A stretch of 53,801 nt of DNA from Acidobacteriota bacterium (lineage in GTDB: Bacteria > Acidobacteriota > JAAYUB01). The translations under genes were made by a program, and so were the position numbers. Location: contig JAFGRT010000030.1 in the NCBI GenBank assembly GCA_016935015.1, forward strand, positions 1 to 53,801, given 5' to 3'. Under the pieces are notes generated by a model. That model was not told the origin of the DNA. It made no database searches and worked only from the letters and a program-made list of their open reading frames with translations. Within the stretch, counting starts at the first letter, position 1. Each line of letters opens with the position of its first letter. Positions 38,914 through 53,801 of this stretch are shown piece after piece.

Positions 38914-40389
38914 ATGGTCAATAAGAACCCCTTGCTACGGCAAAACCTGCAAGTCGGACTTGTTCAGAAACTTGCTCTTACACCGGCCCTGCTTCAAAAA
39001 ATCGAGCTTCTGAAGCTGTCCCATCTGGAACTCAGTGATTTCGTCAAAAACGAGTTGATGCAGAATCCTGTGCTGGAGGAAGATCCCAGTACCAGAGGAT
39101 CGGAGAGCGCGGCCGCGACGGAGATCTCGCTGGAAGAGGCGGCGGGGAAGAGTGACGCCACCCAGGATCGCTCCTTCGAGGATATCGATTATCAGGCGTT
39201 CTTCGGCGAGTATCTGGACTCCGGCCAACGGGGCCTGGGCTATGAGGACTACGAACGTCCGGGATTCGAAACATTTGCCGTCAAGCCCACGTCCCTGTAT
39301 GAACATCTGTCGTGGCAGCTCGGTCTGGAAACCACGACCCCGGTGGTGGATCTGGCCGCCCAGGAGATTGTGGGCAACCTCAATTCGGAGGGTTACCTGG
39401 AGATGGAGCTGGACGAGATCCAGGCCTCCCTGCAGGAACGGATCATTCGGGAGGGGCTCAATCTGAGCGTCGGTTCGGCGGATGTGGAAGAAGCCTTGCG
39501 GGTTGTGCAGCGGCTGGATCCGCCTGGAATCGGCGCCCGCGATCTCCGCGAATGCCTGATGCTGCAGCTGCAGCACTGGGAATTGTCCAATACGCCGGAA
39601 TACCGGATTCTGCGCGATCATGCCGAACTGCTGGAGCAGGGGAACCTGGAAGCCATCGCCGAACTGGAGGATTGCTCCATCGAGGACGTGCGCGTGGTGC
39701 TGGCCCGGATTCGCCATCTCAATCCCAAACCAGGCCTGCAGTATGAATCTGATGCCACGATTTATATTCAGCCGGATGTATACATTTACAAAATGGGCCA
39801 GGATTATGTCATCTCCCTCAATGAGGACGGCCTGCCCAAATTGCATTTGAGCTCCTTTTACCGCCGGATTCTCAAGTCCGGCCAAATGATGAAGGAGGAA
39901 AAGAAATTCCTGCGGGAAAAGTTCCGCAATGCCGTCGAGCTGATCCGCAATCTGGATCATCGCAAACGAACCATTTACCGCGTCTGCGAAATCATTGTCC
40001 AGGAGCAGCGTGATTTTCTCGACAAGGGCATCGCCCATCTCAAGCCGATGCTGCTGAAGGATGTGGCCGATCGCCTGGACCTGCACACCTCCACCGTGAG
40101 CCGGGCCGTCACCAACAAATGGGTTCATTGCCCGCAAGGCATTATCGAATTACGGAATTTTTTCACCCTGGGTTTCAAGCGCGACGGAGGTGAGGATATT
40201 TCCGTGTATATCCTCAAGAAGACAATTTCCGACCTCATCGAAAAAGAGGAGAAACGAAGACCCCTTTCCGACAGCGACATCACCCAAAAGCTCAACAACG
40301 AGGGGATCGAGATCAAGCGTCGCACCGTCGCCAAATACCGGGAGGAGATGGAAATCCCCAATTCACGGGAGCGACGTGTAAAAACCTAA
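38914..40389 (+). CDS. rpoN: RNA polymerase sigma-54 factor
   Basis: A 491-residue sigma-54. Region I at the N-terminus is rich in Gln and Leu (LRQNLQVGLVQKLALTPALLQKIELLKLS, then LMQNPVLEE), which binds activators and the -12 site. An acidic region II spans residues 52-120, the core-binding domain follows, and a DNA-binding region contains KDVADRLDLHTSTVSRAVTNKW. The RpoN box appears near residue 470 as IKRRTVAKYREEM, with RRTVAKYRE matching the usual ARRTVAKYR. It requires AAA+ activators, none of which is encoded here. The ATG is taken because in-frame upstream codons are blocked; the AGGAG is rather far (about 19 bases). Confidence 0.95.
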   Translation: MVNKNPLLRQNLQVGLVQKLALTPALLQKIELLKLSHLELSDFVKNELMQNPVLEEDPSTRGSESAAATEISLEEAAGKSDATQDRSFEDIDYQAFFGEYLDSGQRGLGYEDYERPGFETFAVKPTSLYEHLSWQLGLETTTPVVDLAAQEIVGNLNSEGYLEMELDEIQASLQERIIREGLNLSVGSADVEEALRVVQRLDPPGIGARDLRECLMLQLQHWELSNTPEYRILRDHAELLEQGNLEAIAELEDCSIEDVRVVLARIRHLNPKPGLQYESDATIYIQPDVYIYKMGQDYVISLNEDGLPKLHLSSFYRRILKSGQMMKEEKKFLREKFRNAVELIRNLDHRKRTIYRVCEIIVQEQRDFLDKGIAHLKPMLLKDVADRLDLHTSTVSRAVTNKWVHCPQGIIELRNFFTLGFKRDGGEDISVYILKKTISDLIEKEEKRRPLSDSDITQKLNNEGIEIKRRTVAKYREEMEIPNSRERRVKT

Positions 40390-40405
40390 ACAAGTTGGAG
40401 GAAAG

Positions 40406-40948
40406 ATGAATGTTGAAATCACCGGCCGCCACATCGAGATTACGGATGCCATCAAGGATTATATTCAGAAGAGGGTGGCCAAGTTTCCGAAACTGGTGGG
40501 TGGCTTGTGCGACTTTCATTTTGTGCTGACTGTCGAGAAACATCGTCAGATCGCTGAAGTGAATCTGACCTCCAAGCTGGGCAATTTCACCGCCACGGAT
40601 GAATCCAAGGACCTTTACGGTTCCGTGGGCACGGTGCTGGATAAGGTGGAGAAGCAAGTCCGGCGCTCCAAGGACCGACGCAAAGGGAAGTCCCGCACCA
40701 ACGAGAAGCAGGAACTGGTGGAGCTAATGCGTTCCAGCATTACCGATGTCGGTCGGGCCGAAGACTTGTCCGCCAATCCGGCCATCATCGAGATGCAGAT
40801 GAACGCCAGGCCCATGGCGCTGGAAGAAGCCCTCCATGAACTCAACACATCAGGGGGGAGTTTCGTGGTGTTCATCAATGCCGATTCGGAACTCACCAAC
40901 GTGCTCTACCGGCGAAATGACGGCAATTTTGGGCTGATTCACCCGTGA
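40406..40948 (+). CDS. hpf: Ribosome hibernation-promoting factor, long form
   Basis: A 180-residue long HPF. The N-terminal domain (MNVEITGRHIEITDAIKDYIQKRVAKF; SVGTVLDKVEKQVRRSKDRRKGK; read at residues 1-100) binds the decoding centre of idle 30S subunits. The C-terminal domain (EMQMNARPMALEEALHEL, FVVFINADSELTNVLYRRNDGNFGLIHP; residues 125-180) mediates 100S dimer formation. GGAGG lies 6 bases before the ATG. It follows rpoN by 16 bases and overlaps hprK by 4 bases (GTGA), consistent with the widespread rpoN-hpf-PTS gene order. Confidence 0.95.
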   Translation: MNVEITGRHIEITDAIKDYIQKRVAKFPKLVGGLCDFHFVLTVEKHRQIAEVNLTSKLGNFTATDESKDLYGSVGTVLDKVEKQVRRSKDRRKGKSRTNEKQELVELMRSSITDVGRAEDLSANPAIIEMQMNARPMALEEALHELNTSGGSFVVFINADSELTNVLYRRNDGNFGLIHP

Positions 40949-41958
40949 ACAAAGATCCTTTCTCCAGCAAGGCGGTGGTTGCTGATGAAATCCGTAAACC
41001 CTCCCTGAGTGTCGGGGAATTTTACGAAAAGAATGGCCACCATCTGACTCTGGGCGCGCCCTATTCGCCCACGGCCATGGGCCGCCTGGTGGACAAGAAG
41101 CGGCTCCAGAAACTGGGGATGGCCCTGGCCGGTTTCATGGATTACCTGCAACCGGGGCGCATTTATGTGTTCGGCAACACCGAAACCCGTTTCTTCCAGA
41201 AACAACACCCGCAGATCAAGGCCGACATTCTGGCCAGCCTGCGTTCCAAAAGACTTTCCTGCCTGCTGGTGACCCAGCACCGTGAACCGCCGGTCGAACT
41301 GGTGGATTTTGCCCGGGCCAACGAGATCGCCCTCCTGCGCACAAACCTGGACAGCTCTTCGGCCATGTACCTGTTCACCGAGTTCCTGGAGCGTGAACTC
41401 TCCCCGCGGCTGGCCATTCACGGCGTGCTGATGGATGTTTACGGAGTCGGTGTACTGCTGGTGGGCGAAAGCGGGGTGGGCAAAAGCGAATGCGCCCTCG
41501 AACTGGTGCTCAAGGGTCACCGGATTGTAGCCGATGACACGGTGGAAATCCGCAGCATCGGCAAGAAGCAACTGGCCGGCAGTGCACCGGCAGAACTGCA
41601 GGACGTCCTGGAATTGCGGGGGATCGGCATTGTCAATATCCGTGAACTTTTCGGTATCTCGGCCATTCGCCGGACGAAGGACGTCAATTTCATCATCGAA
41701 CTGGAACGCTGGACCCCGGAAAAGCACTTCGACCGGCTGGGCCTGGACATCAACACCCAACCCCTGATGGGTTTTGAGGTGCCCTACATTGTGATCCCGG
41801 TGGCACCCGGACGCAACCTGGCCACCCTGGTGGAAGTTGCCTGCCGGGTGTACCTGATGAGATATCATGGCCTGCATCCCATGGGCAGCTTCATCAATTT
41901 CCTGAAACACGATGAGTCTCCCGGGGGAGATCCGGGAGACGGGGAGGACGAGGAATGA
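40945..41958 (+). CDS. hprK: HPr kinase/phosphorylase
   Basis: A 337-residue HprK that phosphorylates and dephosphorylates the regulatory Ser of HPr. The P-loop GESGVGKSECA contains K180. The HprK signature HRIVADDTVEI and the region VLELRGIGIVNIRELFG follow, then INTQPLMGFEVPYIVIPVAPGRNL, which holds the phosphorylase-associated residues. The N-terminal 145 residues form the usual HprK N-domain. It starts with GTG overlapping hpf and overlaps the EIIA start by 4 bases (ATGA). Target HPr is encoded two genes downstream with a conserved Ser, so the switch is complete. Confidence 0.95.
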   Translation: MNKDPFSSKAVVADEIRKPSLSVGEFYEKNGHHLTLGAPYSPTAMGRLVDKKRLQKLGMALAGFMDYLQPGRIYVFGNTETRFFQKQHPQIKADILASLRSKRLSCLLVTQHREPPVELVDFARANEIALLRTNLDSSSAMYLFTEFLERELSPRLAIHGVLMDVYGVGVLLVGESGVGKSECALELVLKGHRIVADDTVEIRSIGKKQLAGSAPAELQDVLELRGIGIVNIRELFGISAIRRTKDVNFIIELERWTPEKHFDRLGLDINTQPLMGFEVPYIVIPVAPGRNLATLVEVACRVYLMRYHGLHPMGSFINFLKHDESPGGDPGDGEDEE

Positions 41959-42353
41959 TTCCCTGTGTGGTCATTACCCATGGCCAGCTGGCCAACGAAT
42001 TGGTGGCTTCGGCGGAGATGATCGTCGGTGAGATTTTGCACATCACCCCGCTGTGCCTGGGCTGGAAGGATGACGTCAACGAGTCCCGGGAGGAAATCAC
42101 CCGGGTGCTGGAGGGACTGAATCTCGAGCGGGGCGCCATCATCATGACCGACATGTTCGGCGGCACACCGTCCAACCTGGCCATTTCATTCCTGGGCGAA
42201 AGCCAGGTGGAAGTGCTGACTGGTGTCAATCTGCCCATGATCATCAAGGCCGCCAATCAGGCGAGGGACGAGACCGTGACCTCACTGGCGGAAAAAATCT
42301 GCGAGAAGGGGAAATCCAGTATCACCATCGCCTCGCGTTTTCTGGAGGAATAG
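41955..42353 (+). CDS. PTS mannose-family EIIA component (stand-alone)
   Basis: A 132-residue EIIA-Man domain protein. The phospho-accepting His is H9 in VVITHGQLANELV. IIMTDMFGGTPSNLA is the family's second signature. No EIIB, EIIC or EIID domain is fused or adjacent, so it is probably a regulatory phospho-acceptor rather than part of a sugar transporter. It overlaps hprK by 4 bases and precedes HPr by 80 bases. Confidence 0.92.
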   Translation: MIPCVVITHGQLANELVASAEMIVGEILHITPLCLGWKDDVNESREEITRVLEGLNLERGAIIMTDMFGGTPSNLAISFLGESQVEVLTGVNLPMIIKAANQARDETVTSLAEKICEKGKSSITIASRFLEE

Positions 42354-42433
42354 CCCCGGCATCGGCCGCCGGACCCGCGGGCCGGGCAGACGGCTCCCGG
42401 CGTTGTAACGGCTGCACCAGGCAAGGAAAGGGT

Positions 42434-42700
42434 ATGCTGAAACGAGAGCTGGAGGTCCGGAATCCCCTGGGATTGCATGCCCGGGCCGCGGCGCGGCTGG
42501 TGGATCTGACCAGTGGTTTCCGTTCACGCATCGTGTTTGCCCGCCCCGGGCGCAATGAGCAGGTGGACGGGAAATCCATCCTGGGAATTCTCATGATGGC
42601 CGCTTCGCAAGGGGCCCGCTTGTGGGTGCGGGTGGAAGGTCCGGATGAGGAGCAGGCACTCGCCGCCATCGAGGCCATGTTCGCCAGCGATTTCAAGTAA
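42434..42700 (+). CDS. ptsH: Phosphocarrier protein HPr
   Basis: An 88-residue HPr with both phosphorylation sites: H15 in NPLGLHARAAARLV (from EI) and S48 in VDGKSILGILMMAAS (the site equivalent to Ser46 for HprK). The protein accepts phosphate from EI and gives it to EIIA. EI begins one base after the HPr stop codon. Confidence 0.95.
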   Translation: MLKRELEVRNPLGLHARAAARLVDLTSGFRSRIVFARPGRNEQVDGKSILGILMMAASQGARLWVRVEGPDEEQALAAIEAMFASDFK

Positions 42701-42701
42701 A

Positions 42702-44507
42702 ATGACAATGAAGACGCTGAAAGGTTACGGAGTATCGCCCGGTCTCACGATGGGACAGGTCCTGAAGGTCGAACAGGGACTGCCGCCCGTCTACAAGTTC
42801 CGCATCGCCGATGACGCGGTGCTGCAGCGGGAACTGCTGCGTTTTGACGAAGCCATCGCCCGGACCACCCGTGAACTCCGTGCCTTCCAGCACAAGCTCG
42901 AGGAAAAACTGGGCCGGGACCATTCCCTGATGATCCAGGCCCATATCATGATCCTCCAGGATCACCATTTTTCCGGCGCCATCCGGGACTATATCCACAG
43001 CGAGCGGGTCAATGCCGAATGGGCGGTCACCGTCATTAACGAGCGGATCCGTGAAGCCTACCAAAAACTGCAGGATCCCTATCTGCAGGACAAGATTTTC
43101 GATATCCAGGACATCGCCGCCCGCTTGCTGAACAACATCGCCGGCTGGCAGGAAAATCATGCGCCGGAACACTATGAGAATATCATCCTCGTTAGTTCCG
43201 AAGTGAACCTTTCGCTGCTCGGGCTGATGGATTTCAGTCACCTGAAGGGTTTCGCCGTGGATTCCGGCGGCTGGACCTCCCATACCAGCATCATTGCCCG
43301 GTCGCTGGAAATTCCGGCGGTCATTCACCTGAAAAACATCACCGCCCTGGTACATACGGGCGATCTGGTGTTGCTGGACGGCACCAGCGGCACGGTGCAT
43401 ATCGATCCGGATGAGGCGATGGTGGCCGAATTCCACCAGCAGTCCCAGGCCGAGGTTTCCGCGGTGACGGAGTCGGGACCCTACTGCCTGCTCCGCGAAG
43501 TCGAGTCGGAACCGGCGGCCAAGGTGGACAAGGCCTTGCGGGATTTACGGATTTATCTGAACTCGGAGATGCCCCTCGAGCTGCGCCAATACCAGCGTTT
43601 CGGTGTATCGGGCATTGGTTTGTTCCGGTCGGAGTTCGTCTTTCTACGTAAGCCCACGGAGAAGATGGCCCTGGAAGATCATCTGGAGGTCTACCGCCAG
43701 CTGGCCGAGGCGGCCTATCCGGGGACCGTCAATATCCGCACGTTGGACCTGGGTGCCGACAAATTTCCGGAATCCTTGGGCCGGCATCCGGAGGTGAATC
43801 CCGCCCTGGGTCTGCGGGGCATCCGTCTGAGCCTGGAGTTGCGCGGGCTGTTTCGCGAGCAGCTCAAGGCCATCGTGCTGGCCAATACCCGGAACAATCT
43901 CCAGGTCACCATCCCTTTCGTCTCCAGCCTGGATGAAATTCTGGCCGTCAAGGCTCTTCTGCGGGAAGTCAGCCGGGAAGTGACCGGCCGGGATGAGATC
44001 GCGCTGCCTCTGGGCGCGATGCTGGAAATCCCGAGTACGTTTTTTCTGGTCGACTTGCTGGCGCGGGAGGTGGATTTTTTTGCCTTGGGATCCAACGATC
44101 TGGTCCAGTATACCCTGGCCCGGGACCGCAACAACATGCCCCACTGGTCACCGTTCGATTCAGCCCAGCCGGGAGTACTCGGCGGGCTGGAGCTGTTGCG
44201 CCGCAAGACGGCCGAGCACAAGAAGGAGATCATCTGTTGCGGCGAGATGGCGTCGCATCCTTTTTTTGTGCTGATCTTGCTGGCGCTGGGCTACCGAAGT
44301 CTGAGCATCAATCCGGCCATGTTGCCTCTCATCCGCTATATCACCCGGGCCGTGGACGGCAAGAGCCTGCGCCGCTTTTACCAGCAGCTGTCGGCGCTGC
44401 ACACCTTGCCGGAAATCGAGGATTTCTTTCTGCATCAGCTGGGGAATTGTTTCCCGGAGCCCCTCGTCAAAACCCTCCTGCATGTCTACCGCGCTGAAAT
44501 GGACTGA
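42702..44507 (+). CDS. ptsI: PTS enzyme I
   Basis: A 601-residue PEP-protein phosphotransferase. The swivelling domain has phospho-His H194 in SGGWTSHTSIIARSLEIPA. The PEP-binding barrel has GIGLFRSEFVFL, NIRTLDLGADKFPE, LGLRGIRLSL, FALGSNDLVQYTLARDRNN and the acid Cys C513 in IICCGEMASHP. Everything needed for catalysis is present. The ATG at 42702 starts 1 base after HPr; a second ATG lies two codons on. Lacking sugar permeases nearby, the set EI-HPr-EIIA-HprK looks like a regulatory cascade next to rpoN, as in PTS-Ntr systems. Confidence 0.95.
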   Translation: MTMKTLKGYGVSPGLTMGQVLKVEQGLPPVYKFRIADDAVLQRELLRFDEAIARTTRELRAFQHKLEEKLGRDHSLMIQAHIMILQDHHFSGAIRDYIHSERVNAEWAVTVINERIREAYQKLQDPYLQDKIFDIQDIAARLLNNIAGWQENHAPEHYENIILVSSEVNLSLLGLMDFSHLKGFAVDSGGWTSHTSIIARSLEIPAVIHLKNITALVHTGDLVLLDGTSGTVHIDPDEAMVAEFHQQSQAEVSAVTESGPYCLLREVESEPAAKVDKALRDLRIYLNSEMPLELRQYQRFGVSGIGLFRSEFVFLRKPTEKMALEDHLEVYRQLAEAAYPGTVNIRTLDLGADKFPESLGRHPEVNPALGLRGIRLSLELRGLFREQLKAIVLANTRNNLQVTIPFVSSLDEILAVKALLREVSREVTGRDEIALPLGAMLEIPSTFFLVDLLAREVDFFALGSNDLVQYTLARDRNNMPHWSPFDSAQPGVLGGLELLRRKTAEHKKEIICCGEMASHPFFVLILLALGYRSLSINPAMLPLIRYITRAVDGKSLRRFYQQLSALHTLPEIEDFFLHQLGNCFPEPLVKTLLHVYRAEMD

Positions 44508-48170: not shown

Positions 48171-48238
48171 TCCAGTTTCAAATCAGTTTTGGCGGCTGGA
48201 AGGCCAGCCATGACAACATCGTGAAGGAGAGTGTCACC

Positions 48239-49612
48239 GTGGATCCCATTCTGATCATCATTATTGTTGCCGTGGTGCTCATCGCGGCGTTTTTCGTTCT
48301 CCTGCTTCGAAATTACAAGAGCTGCGGCCCCAATGAGGCCCTTATCATCTCGGGCGGCCGCAAGCGTCCCATCACCCTGCCTGACGGCACGGTGCGGGAG
48401 ATCGGCTACCGGTATCGCATCGGCGGCGGCACCCTGGTCCGGCCGTTCATGGAAAGCACCCAGATCCTGCCGCTGGAAATCATTCCCATGGATTTCAACA
48501 TCGAGGACGCCATCTCTACCAACGGGATCCGTTGCACGGTGCGCGGCACGGCCGAGGTCAAGATCGCCGGCGATGAGCCGGCCATCTACCTGGCGGCGGA
48601 GCAGTTCCTGGGCAAATCCCTGACGGACATCCGCGACGTGGCCCTGCGCTCGCTGGAAGGTTCCTGCCGGGCCCTCATCGGTACCATGAACCTCGAGTCC
48701 CTCAACAAAAACCGCAAACAGTTCACCGCCAAAGTGTTCGAGGATGTGGAGTCCTATTTCACCAACATGGGCGTTCGGCTGCTTTCGTTCAACCTGAAGG
48801 AGATCACCGATCCGTCCGGCTACCTGGCGGCGTTGGGAAAACCGCGCATTGTGGAAGCCCAGCGGGACGCCGAGGTGGCCGAAGCCGAGGCGGCGCGCGA
48901 CGCCATCATCAAGTCGGCCCAGGCCAAAAAAGAGGGCGACATCGCCAAGTTGTCCGCCGAGACCGAAGTCGCCCAGGCCACCCATTCTCTGCAGATGCGG
49001 AAAGCCGAACTGCAGGCGGAACTCAGCATCAAGAAGGCTGACGCTGATTTCTCCTACGAGCTGGAACGGCATAAGATCAACCAGATCCTCAAGGCCGAGG
49101 AAGCCAAGGTCAAGCTCATCGAGAAGGATTCCTCCATCGCTCTGGAAACGAAAGAAATCGAGCGAGCCGAGCAGGAGCTGATGGCCAAGGTCCGCAAGCC
49201 GGCCGATGCCGAAAAGTATCGGTTGCAAGCCGAGGCCGAGGGTATGGCCGCCGCCAAGCGGGCCCAGGCCGTGGCCGAGGCCGATGCCCTGACCAAGGTC
49301 GGGCAGGCCGAAGCCGACGCTCTCAAGAAAAAGGCCGAGGCCTGGAACGCTTTCTCCGAACCGGCGCTGCTGCAGCTGGTGTTCGAGAAGCTGCCCGATC
49401 TGGCCAGGGAGATGGCCGCGCCGCTGGCCAAGGTGGACAAGATCGTCATGGTCTCCAGCGACGGCAAGATGGGCTCCGCCAAAATCACCGGCGAGGTAGC
49501 CTCCATGCTGAGCCAGCTGCCGGCGGTGGTCAAGGATCTGTCGGGTTTCGATATGCAGGCCTGGCTCCAGAAACTGGCGGATAAATCCAGCCCGGGAACC
49601 GAATCGAAGTGA
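48239..49612 (+). CDS. Flotillin-like SPFH/band 7 membrane protein
   Basis: A 457-residue protein with one N-terminal membrane helix (ILIIIIVAVVLIAAFFVLLL), an SPFH domain (residues about 25-210: CGPNEALIISGGRKRP, MDFNIEDAISTNGIRCTVRGTAEVKI), and a long Ala/Glu/Lys-rich coiled coil (residues 210-375) typical of flotillins. The C-terminal 80 residues are helical. Flotillins oligomerise at membrane microdomains and affect fluidity and signalling complexes. The GTG at 48239 is favoured because AAGGAG stands 9 bases before it; an upstream in-frame GTG at 48221 overlaps that ribosome site. The aminotransferase fusion gene follows after 30 bases. Confidence 0.9.
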   Translation: MDPILIIIIVAVVLIAAFFVLLLRNYKSCGPNEALIISGGRKRPITLPDGTVREIGYRYRIGGGTLVRPFMESTQILPLEIIPMDFNIEDAISTNGIRCTVRGTAEVKIAGDEPAIYLAAEQFLGKSLTDIRDVALRSLEGSCRALIGTMNLESLNKNRKQFTAKVFEDVESYFTNMGVRLLSFNLKEITDPSGYLAALGKPRIVEAQRDAEVAEAEAARDAIIKSAQAKKEGDIAKLSAETEVAQATHSLQMRKAELQAELSIKKADADFSYELERHKINQILKAEEAKVKLIEKDSSIALETKEIERAEQELMAKVRKPADAEKYRLQAEAEGMAAAKRAQAVAEADALTKVGQAEADALKKKAEAWNAFSEPALLQLVFEKLPDLAREMAAPLAKVDKIVMVSSDGKMGSAKITGEVASMLSQLPAVVKDLSGFDMQAWLQKLADKSSPGTESK

Positions 49613-49642
49613 GCCGGCGCGGCGCTCCTAGAGGAATAAACC

Positions 49643-51988
49643 ATGATTGCGAATCGAATTGGTCGACTGGAACTGTCACCGACACTGCGCATCAACGCCA
49701 AGGCCAAGGTGATGAAGGCGGCCGGCGTGGATATCATCGATTTCTCCGTCGGCGAACCCGATTTCCCCACTCCCGAGGAAATAAAGGAATCCGCCAAGGC
49801 GGCCATTGACGCGAATTTTACCAAATACACCGCCAACGACGGGATTCCCGAGTTGAAGGCGGCCATCCGCGCCCGTTTCCGCGAGGATCACGGCCTGGAG
49901 TATGACGCCAAGGAGATCATCGTCTCGGCCGGCGCCAAGCACAGCCTGTACAATTTGTTCATGGCCATCCTGAACCGGGACGAGGAAGTGATCATCCCCG
50001 CCCCGTACTGGGTCTCCTATCCCCAGCAAGTCCTCATGGTGAAGGGCAAGCCGGTCATTGTCTCCACCCGCGAGGAAAACGGTTTCCGCCTGACACCCGA
50101 GGAACTGAAAGCCCATCTCAATTTCAACACCAAGGCCCTGGTTATCAACAATCCGAGCAATCCCACGGGCTCGGCCTACACCCGGGAGCAGCTGCTGGAG
50201 ATCTGCGAGATCGCCGTCAAGGAAGGACTGCTCATCATCGCCGACGAGATTTACGAGAAGGTGGTTTACGACGGATTCCGGATGACCTCCATCGCCGCCC
50301 TTGGCGATCGTATCAAGGAGCGGACCGTCATCATCAACGGCGTGTCCAAGGCCTACTCCATGACCGGCTGGCGGTTAGGCTATGCCGCCGGGCCACGGGA
50401 AATCATTACGGCCATGGACATCATTCAGTCCCACTCCACTTCCAGCGTCAATTCCATCGCCCAGAAAGCGGCCGTGGAGGCACTGGCAGGCGACCAGGCC
50501 AAGATCAGCCAGATGGTGGCCCAGTTCCAGGCCCGCCGAAATTACATGCTCAGCAAGCTGCGACGGATCGACGGGGTATCATGCTACGAGCCGCAAGGGG
50601 CGTTCTATCTGTTTCCCAACGTCTCCTCATACTACAACACGGAATACGGCGGCATGAGAATCCGCAACTCCTACGGCCTGTCCTATTATCTGCTCAAGGA
50701 GGCGGCGGTGGCAGTGGTGCCGGGGAGTGCCTTCGGCGCCGACGAGAATATCCGGCTGTCCTACGCCACGTCCATGGACAACATCGAGGAGGGGCTGGAC
50801 CGGATTGTCGACGCCATGGCCCGTCTCAAGGAGTCGCCCAAGTTCAAGCAAATTGCTTTGCAGAACGTCATGACCCATCCCCGCCAGAACACCGAGAGCA
50901 AGCTGGATCTCTCCACCGAGGAGCGCGACGCCCTGGTCATGGAAGCGGAGGCGGCACTGCCTTACGACCGCTATTTCGAATGGAACGCCAATATCAACGG
51001 CATCATCGTCCAGTTGCGCACCAACGTGCCGCATCTGTATGATTTCTGGCTGGAGAACTGGTATCCGGCCCAGCTGGAGTCGGATTTGGAGCCGCACGGC
51101 ATCATCTACGCCGTGGACGGCGTTGCCGGCCGCACTCCCTACGCCTACTACTGCCCGTCCATGAAAACGGCTGTCCTGTTCAACACCAGCTACTACGGCC
51201 AGGTCCGCCAGTGGGGCCTGGGCATGGTGGCCCACATCAGCGAGCGGATGCTCGACATTCATGGCCTCCGGGCCGCCTGCCTCGATTACAACGGCCACGG
51301 CGTGGCCCTTATCGGGCCCAAAGGAATGGGCCGGGGCACAGCTTTCTTCCGGCTTTTGGAAGAGGACAAGGCGCGATTCGTGAGCAATGACTGGGTTTTT
51401 GTCCGTTATCGGGGGTCCGAGGCCATCGCCGATGCCCCGGAACGGAAATACTATCTGAAAACGGATATCGCCGAGCAATTCCCACACTATGCCCGTATCT
51501 TCGACCGCAGCAAATGCGAGAACGTCGTCACCAAGCGCTCCGACTGGACCAACATGGCCGCCCTGGGGGACGAGTGCCCGCTGGATCTCGGGGAACCTTA
51601 CTGCTACTGGGGTTCCACCAATTCACGGGCGATGGTGGATGCGGCATGGATCGGCGGACCGCAGAAAGTGCTCCGCCGCACGCGCCTGAATACGGTCATC
51701 TTCCTGGTGTATGAACCCAACGCGCCGTCGGTACAGAAGCTCTCGGCCGAGGAGGCGCTGGAGTACGTCACGGAGGGGCGGTATCAAACCCGCGGCGAGG
51801 GCGGGCTGCGGGAAGTGAAGAATCAGCCCTTTTTCAATCCGTATTTGCTGGACACTTCCGTCGATCAACAGGATCTGCAGCGTCGGAATTTCTACCAGCT
51901 GTTCCGCGTGGCGCGTGCCTTCAAGCTCAATACGGCGGCTATCCCGCCGGAGGCCCTCAAGGCGCGGCTGCGTGACGTCATCGGTTAG
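49643..51988 (+). CDS. Aspartate aminotransferase-like enzyme fused to a PEPCK/HprK-like P-loop domain
   Basis: A 781-residue fusion. Residues 1 to about 400 form a class I aminotransferase of the AspB type, with the PLP lysine K236 in NGVSKAYSMTGWRLGY, NNPSNPTGSAY and IRLSYATSMDNIEEGL. It should transfer the amino group of aspartate or a similar amino acid to 2-oxoglutarate. Residues about 430-781 are a second domain whose core resembles the PEP carboxykinase/HPr kinase fold: a P-loop-like GPKGMGRGT (558-566), then FVSNDWVFV as a possible Walker B, ERKYYLKTD, and NTVIFLVYEPNAP. The P-loop Lys is Arg (R564) and the following Ser is Gly, so nucleotide binding may be altered. AGAGGA precedes the ATG. 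ndk and pckA follow directly. Confidence 0.78.
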   Translation: MIANRIGRLELSPTLRINAKAKVMKAAGVDIIDFSVGEPDFPTPEEIKESAKAAIDANFTKYTANDGIPELKAAIRARFREDHGLEYDAKEIIVSAGAKHSLYNLFMAILNRDEEVIIPAPYWVSYPQQVLMVKGKPVIVSTREENGFRLTPEELKAHLNFNTKALVINNPSNPTGSAYTREQLLEICEIAVKEGLLIIADEIYEKVVYDGFRMTSIAALGDRIKERTVIINGVSKAYSMTGWRLGYAAGPREIITAMDIIQSHSTSSVNSIAQKAAVEALAGDQAKISQMVAQFQARRNYMLSKLRRIDGVSCYEPQGAFYLFPNVSSYYNTEYGGMRIRNSYGLSYYLLKEAAVAVVPGSAFGADENIRLSYATSMDNIEEGLDRIVDAMARLKESPKFKQIALQNVMTHPRQNTESKLDLSTEERDALVMEAEAALPYDRYFEWNANINGIIVQLRTNVPHLYDFWLENWYPAQLESDLEPHGIIYAVDGVAGRTPYAYYCPSMKTAVLFNTSYYGQVRQWGLGMVAHISERMLDIHGLRAACLDYNGHGVALIGPKGMGRGTAFFRLLEEDKARFVSNDWVFVRYRGSEAIADAPERKYYLKTDIAEQFPHYARIFDRSKCENVVTKRSDWTNMAALGDECPLDLGEPYCYWGSTNSRAMVDAAWIGGPQKVLRRTRLNTVIFLVYEPNAPSVQKLSAEEALEYVTEGRYQTRGEGGLREVKNQPFFNPYLLDTSVDQQDLQRRNFYQLFRVARAFKLNTAAIPPEALKARLRDVIG

Positions 51989-52003
51989 GAGAGGAGGACC
52001 TAC

Positions 52004-52426
52004 ATGGCCAACACACTGGGGATCATCAAACCCGACGCCGTCCGCCGCCGCCTGGTGGGACGGATTATCCAGCGCATCGAGCAGGAAGGTTTGATTCTGC
52101 GGGGTATGAAAGTGCAGCGTCTCAGCCCGGAACAGGCGCGCCGGTTTTACGCCGTGCATGAGAATAAGCCGTTTTACAAGAGCCTCGTGGATTTCATGAC
52201 GTCCGGGCCTGTGGTGCTGATGGTCATCGGTGGCCACCGCTCCATCGAGCGCTGGCGTGATCTCATGGGTGCGACGGATCCGGCCAAGGCCAAATACAAC
52301 ACCATCCGCCGGGAATTCGGCACATCCATCGAGCGGAACGTGGTGCATGGCTCGGACAGTCCGGAAACGGCCCGCTTTGAGGTGGGTTTCTTTTTCCGAG
52401 ACGATGAAATTCTGCCCAAGGAATAA
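52004..52426 (+). CDS. ndk: Nucleoside diphosphate kinase
   Basis: A 140-residue NDK that transfers the gamma-phosphate among nucleoside triphosphates. The phospho-histidine is H115 in NVVHGSDS, with the N-terminal LGIIKPDAVRR and the Arg/Thr nucleotide-contact residues in REFGTSIERN. Length is normal. AGGAGAGGAGG lies just before the ATG. It sits between the aminotransferase fusion and pckA, 15 and 5 bases away respectively, so the three are probably one operon. Confidence 0.95.
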   Translation: MANTLGIIKPDAVRRRLVGRIIQRIEQEGLILRGMKVQRLSPEQARRFYAVHENKPFYKSLVDFMTSGPVVLMVIGGHRSIERWRDLMGATDPAKAKYNTIRREFGTSIERNVVHGSDSPETARFEVGFFFRDDEILPKE

Positions 52427-52431
52427 ATGCC

Positions 52432-53801
52432 ATGTCGGAATCTTTATATGACACCCAATTTTATGCCCGCTTTTACCGGGATCTGCAGCGCCGGCTGAAC
52501 GGCTCCAATATCAAGGAGGCCAATCATAAGGAGTTGCGGGAGCCGTCCATTGCGACGGGAACACGAACCAAATACGGCTCTTACGGCTGGAGGTCCATGG
52601 TTTCCAGTCGTATCGCCGAGAAGACGGTGGTACTGGGTTCGGAAAAGGTGCGCGAGTTTCATCTGACGGATACCAAGCGGAATTTGATCGCCAAGGCCCC
52701 CGAGGAACTGGACAAGGTGCTGCACCTGATGGAAACCATGCCCTTCGTCAAGCTGCGGCGGCAGATGGGCGACAATCCCGAATACAATCCCAAATGCAAT
52801 ATGTACATGTCGGTGGCCGATCAGAAAAATTTCCGGCTGGCCTACATGTGGGGCCATACCATGGGACCGGAAACCAAGGCCCCCGGTCCCGAATTTACCC
52901 TGATCCATATTCCCGAGGAACATTCCATCCGCCAACAAGCACTGGTGCTGCCCGACTACAACCTGACCATCGTGCTGGGCTCCGATTACATGGGCGAGGA
53001 CAAGAAAGGCTTTTTGCGCAACGGCATGTATGCCGCCGATACGCTGGGCATGCTGGGTCTCCACGCCGGCACCAAGGTCGTCATCACGCGAGATCCGAAA
53101 ACCGGCAAGCTGAAAAAATTCGGCGTATTTCTGTTCGGCCTGTCGGCCACCGGCAAGAGTACCTGGTCTTGCCACCAGCTGGGGCTGGACTGGTCTCGCG
53201 GCGAGCGAACCCTCGTCTGCCAGGATGATATCTGTTTCCTGAAACGGGACGGCTCCGCCTATGGCTCGGAATTTAACTATTTCGTCAAGACGGACGTGGA
53301 TAAAAAACTCCAGGAGGCCATGTACAACTCCCTGATCCACAAAAGCGCCCTATACGAAAACGTGATGATTGCCGCCGACGGCCGTCCCGATTTTCTGGAC
53401 GAGAGCCTGTGCGGCAACGGCCGCGCGGTCATCGCCCGCAAGCAGCTCAAGATCAAGGTGGGGCGCGGCCCCTTTTCCATGAAAAGCATCTGGTACCCTT
53501 CCCTCAACCTGCCGTCCCTGGACGAGCTGGATGGTCTGGTGTTCGCCTTCATTACCCGCCGCAACACCATCATGACCTTCTCCCAACGGCTGACGCCCAT
53601 GCAGGCCGTGCTGGCCTATCTGTGGGGCGAGTCGAGCCATAGCTACGCCTCCAATCCGGCCAAGGCGGGGGAATCGGTCCGGACAGTGGGCACCGATCCG
53701 TTCATCGTCGGCTCACGGGCCCACAAGGTCAATCTCTTCTACCGAATCATCATGGATCTTGTCAGCAACTATCCCGACAAGGTCTTCTTCTATCAGTACA
53801 A
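52432..53801 (+). CDS. pckA: ATP-type phosphoenolpyruvate carboxykinase, N-terminal part (cut by window edge)
   Basis: The first 456 codons of a PEP carboxykinase, which converts oxaloacetate and ATP to PEP, CO2 and ADP. The nucleotide P-loop is FGLSATGKST with K242. TLVCQDDICFL is the metal-binding aspartate region. Earlier segments EHSIRQQALVLPDYNLTIVLGSDYMGEDKKG and NGMYAADTLGMLGLHAG (residues 163-220) are family-typical for divergent ATP-dependent enzymes. The remaining C-terminus lies beyond the window. ATG 52432 is 5 bases after ndk. Together with the upstream aminotransferase fusion, the cluster links oxaloacetate and nucleotide use. Confidence 0.88.
   Translation, partial: MSESLYDTQFYARFYRDLQRRLNGSNIKEANHKELREPSIATGTRTKYGSYGWRSMVSSRIAEKTVVLGSEKVREFHLTDTKRNLIAKAPEELDKVLHLMETMPFVKLRRQMGDNPEYNPKCNMYMSVADQKNFRLAYMWGHTMGPETKAPGPEFTLIHIPEEHSIRQQALVLPDYNLTIVLGSDYMGEDKKGFLRNGMYAADTLGMLGLHAGTKVVITRDPKTGKLKKFGVFLFGLSATGKSTWSCHQLGLDWSRGERTLVCQDDICFLKRDGSAYGSEFNYFVKTDVDKKLQEAMYNSLIHKSALYENVMIAADGRPDFLDESLCGNGRAVIARKQLKIKVGRGPFSMKSIWYPSLNLPSLDELDGLVFAFITRRNTIMTFSQRLTPMQAVLAYLWGESSHSYASNPAKAGESVRTVGTDPFIVGSRAHKVNLFYRIIMDLVSNYPDKVFFYQY

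Follow-up and report, generated by a model that had tools for sequence, protein, structure and literature searches.

An aspartate aminotransferase fused to a PEPCK-fold domain with an altered P-loop and encoded next to a flotillin in an Acidobacteriota bacterium

Introduction

The stretch of Acidobacteriota DNA analyzed here (53,801 nucleotides, referred to as the window) contains a gene for a protein of 781 amino acids (49643..51988, + strand) in which an aminotransferase is followed by a PEPCK-like domain with an unusual P-loop, and this raises the question of what such a domain might do as part of an aminotransferase. An earlier note on this DNA had described the protein as an AspB-type aminotransferase continuing in one unbroken frame into a PEPCK/HprK-type domain with a degenerate P-loop, and had suggested that it forms a metabolic unit with the adjacent ndk and pckA genes. 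For the second half it had considered a regulatory nucleotide sensor, a kinase that uses the altered loop, or a partner in substrate channeling. With the help of profile searches, structure prediction and comparison of homologous loci we aimed to (i) identify the two halves of the protein, (ii) determine the distribution of the fusion and the state of its catalytic motifs, and (iii) weigh its putative function against its genomic context.

The Aminotransferase Half

The reading frame has an ATG start and is open throughout, in agreement with the earlier note. The aminotransferase half comprises residues 1-396 (49643..50830, + strand), of which residues 30-388 match the full length of the Aminotran_1_2 model in Pfam (PF00155, E-value 9.8e-78), and its closest matches in the PDB are aspartate aminotransferases, e.g., aspartate aminotransferase B (6f35, E-value 5.9e-108). 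K99, K236 and R371 are invariant across 49 aligned homologues. K236 (50348..50350, + strand), located in GVSKAYSMTGWR, is the predicted PLP-binding lysine. The half thus combines a full-length Aminotran_1_2 domain with the PLP lysine and the substrate arginine of class I aminotransferases. It shares all catalytic motifs with aspartate aminotransferases of the AspB/PRK06107 type (6f35, 1j32, 1bjw), from which the fusion differs by the added domain of 380 residues, and it scores 443 bits against the NCBIfam equivalog model, which is below the cut-off of 617. Judging from these features it is probably an active aspartate aminotransferase (AspAT).

Fold of the Second Half

The approximately 380 residues that follow (residues 402-781; 50846..51985, + strand) are not covered by any Pfam or NCBIfam model. 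Matches in Pfam all stayed below cut-off, and the NCBIfam matches were weak (PEPCK, 3e-4; HprK-related kinase B, 0.0018; HprK, 0.017). The earlier note had proposed a profile search of the domain. PF01293 gave no match at its gathering score, at which the neighboring PEPCK has one, and PF07475 reached just 12.3 bits vs. a cut-off of 33.3. The N-terminal domain of HPr kinase/phosphorylase (PF02603) was absent as well. Searched against the PDB by sequence, the second half returned noise only, and a profile built from it returned weak HprK matches only. Structure comparison was therefore needed.

An AlphaFold2 model of the second half, based on an alignment of 23 rows, was predicted with a pLDDT of 88.6 and a pTM of 0.87. 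Foldseek ranked ATP-PEPCKs on top when searched with this model (1oen, E-value 6.0e-19), and VIA-align superimposed it on 340 residues of 1yvy (Z 29.2, rmsd 2.7), with the Thermus PEPCK tied. The structural alignment spans the domain from end to end and therefore includes both PEPCK lobes rather than an HprK-like core alone. In a profile comparison hhalign aligned the second half to the family of the neighboring PEPCK with E-values of 9.9e-10 (23 rows) and 3e-12 (69 rows). The model of the full-length fusion had a similar pLDDT (88.4) but a pTM of 0.62, i.e., each half folds and their relative placement is uncertain. Both the fusion and the predicted fold of the second half, a whole two-lobe ATP-PEPCK, are well supported, so that the PEPCK/HprK-type domain of the earlier note can be specified as PEPCK-like by structure.

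The second half shares its entire two-lobe fold with ATP-PEPCKs (PF01293; 1oen from E. coli, 1j3b and 1xkv from Thermus), and their ENV and E-x-x-x-Y-x-K-T motifs align with it. It is only 14-18% identical to them, however, and is attached to an aminotransferase. The resemblance to HprK and the HprK-related kinases A and B (PF07475, TIGR04352, TIGR04355) is limited to the kinase core, with weak profile matches near the P-loop, whereas the match to PEPCK covers both lobes.

The window also contains, in a row (38914-44507), canonical rpoN, a ribosome hibernation factor, a canonical hprK (40945-41958), HPr (42440-42685) and PTS enzyme I (42645-44507). We therefore rejected the possibility that the second half is the HPr kinase of this organism.

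Taxonomic Distribution of the Fusion

The fusion was present in named genomes of Zixibacteria, Calditrichota and Aminicenantes. Profile searches recovered fused homologues in 40/132 genomes of the Zixibacteria group, some of them cut by contig ends, and in 9/40 of the Calditrichota group, six of which were full-length; the window's own phylum yielded 41/396 full-length fusions. Every full-length copy found in these four groups was fused, and the recurrence of the arrangement in so many genomes shows that it is neither due to chance nor an assembly artefact. The PEPCK-like domain is under constraint, with 69-78% identity within the Zixibacteria clade. A seemingly unfused copy of 436 amino acids in one genome (G543) was dismissed, because it is cut by the contig edge and begins inside the aminotransferase.

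The only unfused relatives found were two remote proteins of 581-600 amino acids (L077:3423-5222 and L078:3645-5387, - strand). They have intact GTGKST and DD motifs and weak family matches (HprK-related kinase A, approximately 3e-5), and are candidate kinases.

Altered Catalytic Motifs of the PEPCK-Like Domain

The P-loop of the domain reads GPKGMGRGT (residues 558-566; 51314..51340, + strand), and hhalign confirmed that it aligns with GLSATGKST of the downstream PEPCK, as had been noted before. Lys is replaced by Arg and Ser/Thr by Gly, so that the kinase-1a motif GK[ST] expected of a PEPCK is missing. As a second lesion, ND (residues 582-583; 51386..51391, + strand) replaces the aligned DD of PEPCK and HprK; here the first Asp is changed and the second is retained. 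The position equivalent to the metal ligand K213 of E. coli PEPCK is Gln in the window, and it is Lys neither in any of the 69 aligned fusions nor in the unfused relatives. The domain in the window thus has neither the metal-binding Lys nor the DD pair of PEPCK. As none of the rows has the metal-ligand Lys, the domain cannot be classed with ordinary PEPCKs and probably represents a pseudo-PEPCK.

AspAT and PEPCK catalyze consecutive steps, and with a whole PEPCK fold in its second half the fusion might be thought of as a bifunctional enzyme that converts aspartate to PEP via channeled oxaloacetate, both halves being catalytic. The loss of the equivalents of the metal Lys, the P-loop Lys and the first Asp in the window, the lack of the metal Lys in all relatives, and the PEPCK with intact motifs encoded next door make this very improbable.

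GK[ST] was kept in 11 of the 69 aligned fusions and lost in the other 58. In the clade of the window Arg-Gly stands in place of Lys-Ser/Thr, with Arg fixed in 15/15 rows; a second Arg clade (15 rows, mostly GRT) consists of proteins from the window's own phylum; 25 rows, including Aminicenantes and Calditrichota, have mostly KKT or RKT; and three have GKA. Among the fused relatives L132, L133 and L083 keep GTGK[ST] together with DD. The earlier note had proposed to examine whether the fusion and its Arg are conserved, and this holds for the fusion, but for the Arg only within clades. It had also considered that its reading would fail if homologues had separate halves and a normal loop; normal-loop homologues do exist, yet they are mostly still fused, the two remote relatives being the unfused ones. 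Their existence identifies the altered loop as a derived trait within the aligned family rather than a defining one.

A maximum likelihood tree of the 69 rows was constructed without the loop and DD columns, and its supported branches force two independent changes from Lys to Arg. The intact state is scattered over this unrooted tree and is therefore probably ancestral. True PEPCKs never vary in the G, T, G, K and final T of the loop, whereas the loop of the fusions shows only average conservation. Other positions of the domain are nearly fixed (W447, N448, R459, T460, N461, H464, D467, E471, N472, E600, R601, K602, E626, N627, D666, W669, R679).

These data bear on the alternative that the second half is still a nucleotide-dependent kinase, HprK-like and with a protein or small-molecule substrate, whose loop is altered in the window and normal elsewhere. 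The fusions that kept GK[ST], several of them with DD, are in line with such an activity, as are the second Asp retained in the window and the intact motifs of the two unfused relatives, and the fixation of Arg throughout the window's clade argues that the loop is maintained there and not drifting. On the other hand, the loop Lys is lost in 30/69 rows and the loop Gly in 25 more, the first Asp is also changed in most of those, PEPCK conserves its P-loop far more strictly, and the separate HPr kinase and HPr make HPr a less than obvious substrate. On balance we regard a kinase as unlikely.

In most members the ENV motif is followed by a C-x4-C-x5-C-x8-C motif, whose cysteines are present in 54, 48, 66 and 66 of the 69 rows, respectively. 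This pattern suggests a metal site, more likely for zinc because the second Cys is replaced by His in one group. The first two cysteines are lost in the clade of the window, and the remnant in the window itself (51533..51607, + strand) retains only C645 and C654.

Genomic Context

Directly upstream of the fusion lies a gene for a flotillin-type SPFH membrane protein (48221..49612, + strand), which matches both the SPFH/Band 7 model (Band_7, 69 bits) and the flotillin C-terminal model (Flot, 43.4 bits) over their cut-offs. It belongs to the same unit as the fusion, and of the 71 loci with enough flanking sequence 70 have a flotillin gene in this position and orientation. The genes further upstream vary between loci; the flotillin of the window is preceded by a CPBP-type protease. 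Flotillin (SPFH2) operons with NfeD (PMC2636767) share with our loci a conserved two-gene arrangement, but the partner here is the aminotransferase-PEPCK fusion. No NfeD was found among the upstream genes checked at six loci, which were unrelated to NfeD and differed between loci, and aminotransferases are absent from the text of the 2009 flotillin survey (PMC2636767).

Downstream of the fusion follow the gene for nucleoside diphosphate kinase (ndk; 52004..52426, + strand; PF00334, 1.3e-53) and that for an ATP-type PEPCK with intact KK, GKST and DD motifs, which is cut by the contig end (pckA; 52432..53801, + strand; PF01293, 5.8e-26; NF006821, 1e-75). This PEPCK is itself divergent and represents a subfamily of its own (it scores 91.7 bits against PF01293 and, in the form truncated by the contig end, stays below the NCBIfam cut-off), and its relatives have a C-terminal extension.

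A PEPCK gene was located near the fusion in 36/69 rows, and ndk adjoins it only in the clade of the window. The unit of fusion, ndk and pckA, as earlier described, is thus real in the window without being the core association; the constant partner is flotillin. Fourteen fusion-bearing genomes from four families of the window's phylum lacked a match to the profile of the neighboring PEPCK, 12 of them carrying a GTP-PEPCK instead, and we therefore rejected PEPCK adjacency as a universal defining partnership. A connection between loop loss and a nearby PEPCK (34/58 altered vs. 2/11 intact loops) is not claimed, because kinship and uneven flanks act as confounders.

With flotillin as the only near-invariant neighbor, the second half could also be a structural adaptor without ligand, whose only role is to attach the aminotransferase to flotillin (or PEPCK) and whose pocket is free to decay. 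The repeated loss of nucleotide features and the partly lost cysteine motif in the window's clade would agree with this. R522, E600, K602, E626 and N627, placed in the PEPCK cleft by alignment only, are however nearly fixed, beyond what a docking surface would need, and we consider a ligand-free adaptor rather unlikely.

Origin of the Cassette

The flotillin, fusion, ndk and PEPCK genes are approximately 69-83% identical to those of Zixibacteria, whereas rpoN in the window is 63% identical to genomes of the same family and 32-35% to Zixibacteria. Three genomes of the same family have neither the fusion nor the neighboring kind of PEPCK. Identities of 75-78% to Zixibacteria had raised the suspicion of a mis-binned contig, which we rejected because the window agrees with the remainder of the genome in tetranucleotide usage and its rpoN is like that of the same family. 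A Zixibacteria-like cassette (48221-53801) next to an rpoN that is not fits better with lateral transfer, by which the cassette was probably acquired; we infer the direction of transfer from the distribution and not from a tree.

Putative Function

Taking these observations together, we tentatively favor, at somewhat less than even confidence, the reading of the fusion as an AspAT with a pseudo-PEPCK domain for ligand binding or docking on a flotillin platform. It builds on the fusion itself, the predicted fold, the lesions, the recurrent loss of the loop in different lineages and the linkage to flotillin. The active AspAT would carry a permanently attached pseudoenzyme domain descended from an ATP-binding kinase of the PEPCK/HprK type, which in the lineage of the window would have lost the features for ATP-dependent chemistry and kept conserved polar and aromatic residues. 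The retained cleft may bind a ligand that resembles PEP or oxaloacetate (or another C4-acid), or may dock a partner such as PEPCK, and the binding of either would tune the aspartate/oxaloacetate reaction, with flotillin holding the assembly at the membrane. The conserved residues were mapped to the PEPCK substrate site by alignment only, and docking to the neighboring kind of PEPCK could not be universal, since 14 genomes with the fusion lack it. The fused relatives with intact loops (L132, L133, L083) speak against a pseudo-PEPCK, as they could still be kinases.

Conclusions

Both folds are known, and the libraries and open-licence papers searched contain no description of their widespread combination; our searches of such papers found neither the fusion nor a pseudo-PEPCK nor a link between flotillin and an aminotransferase. 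Within one fused architecture the members of the family form a natural gradation, with an intact kinase-type P-loop at one end and its repeated loss at the other, which makes it possible to test directly how the fold of a central metabolic enzyme turned into a probable regulator. Given its near-invariant neighbor, the fusion is also a specific candidate for a client of bacterial flotillins, and the linkage may reflect an undescribed point of control, tied to the membrane, between the metabolism of amino acids and that of sugars. More speculatively, and in our estimation doubtfully, the fusion and flotillin could constitute a widespread membrane module in which the pseudo-PEPCK attached to AspAT reads oxaloacetate or PEP and controls the flow between amino acids and gluconeogenesis. 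If true, this would provide a pseudo-PEPCK with a regulatory role, and a conserved operon that links a metabolic enzyme to a bacterial flotillin.
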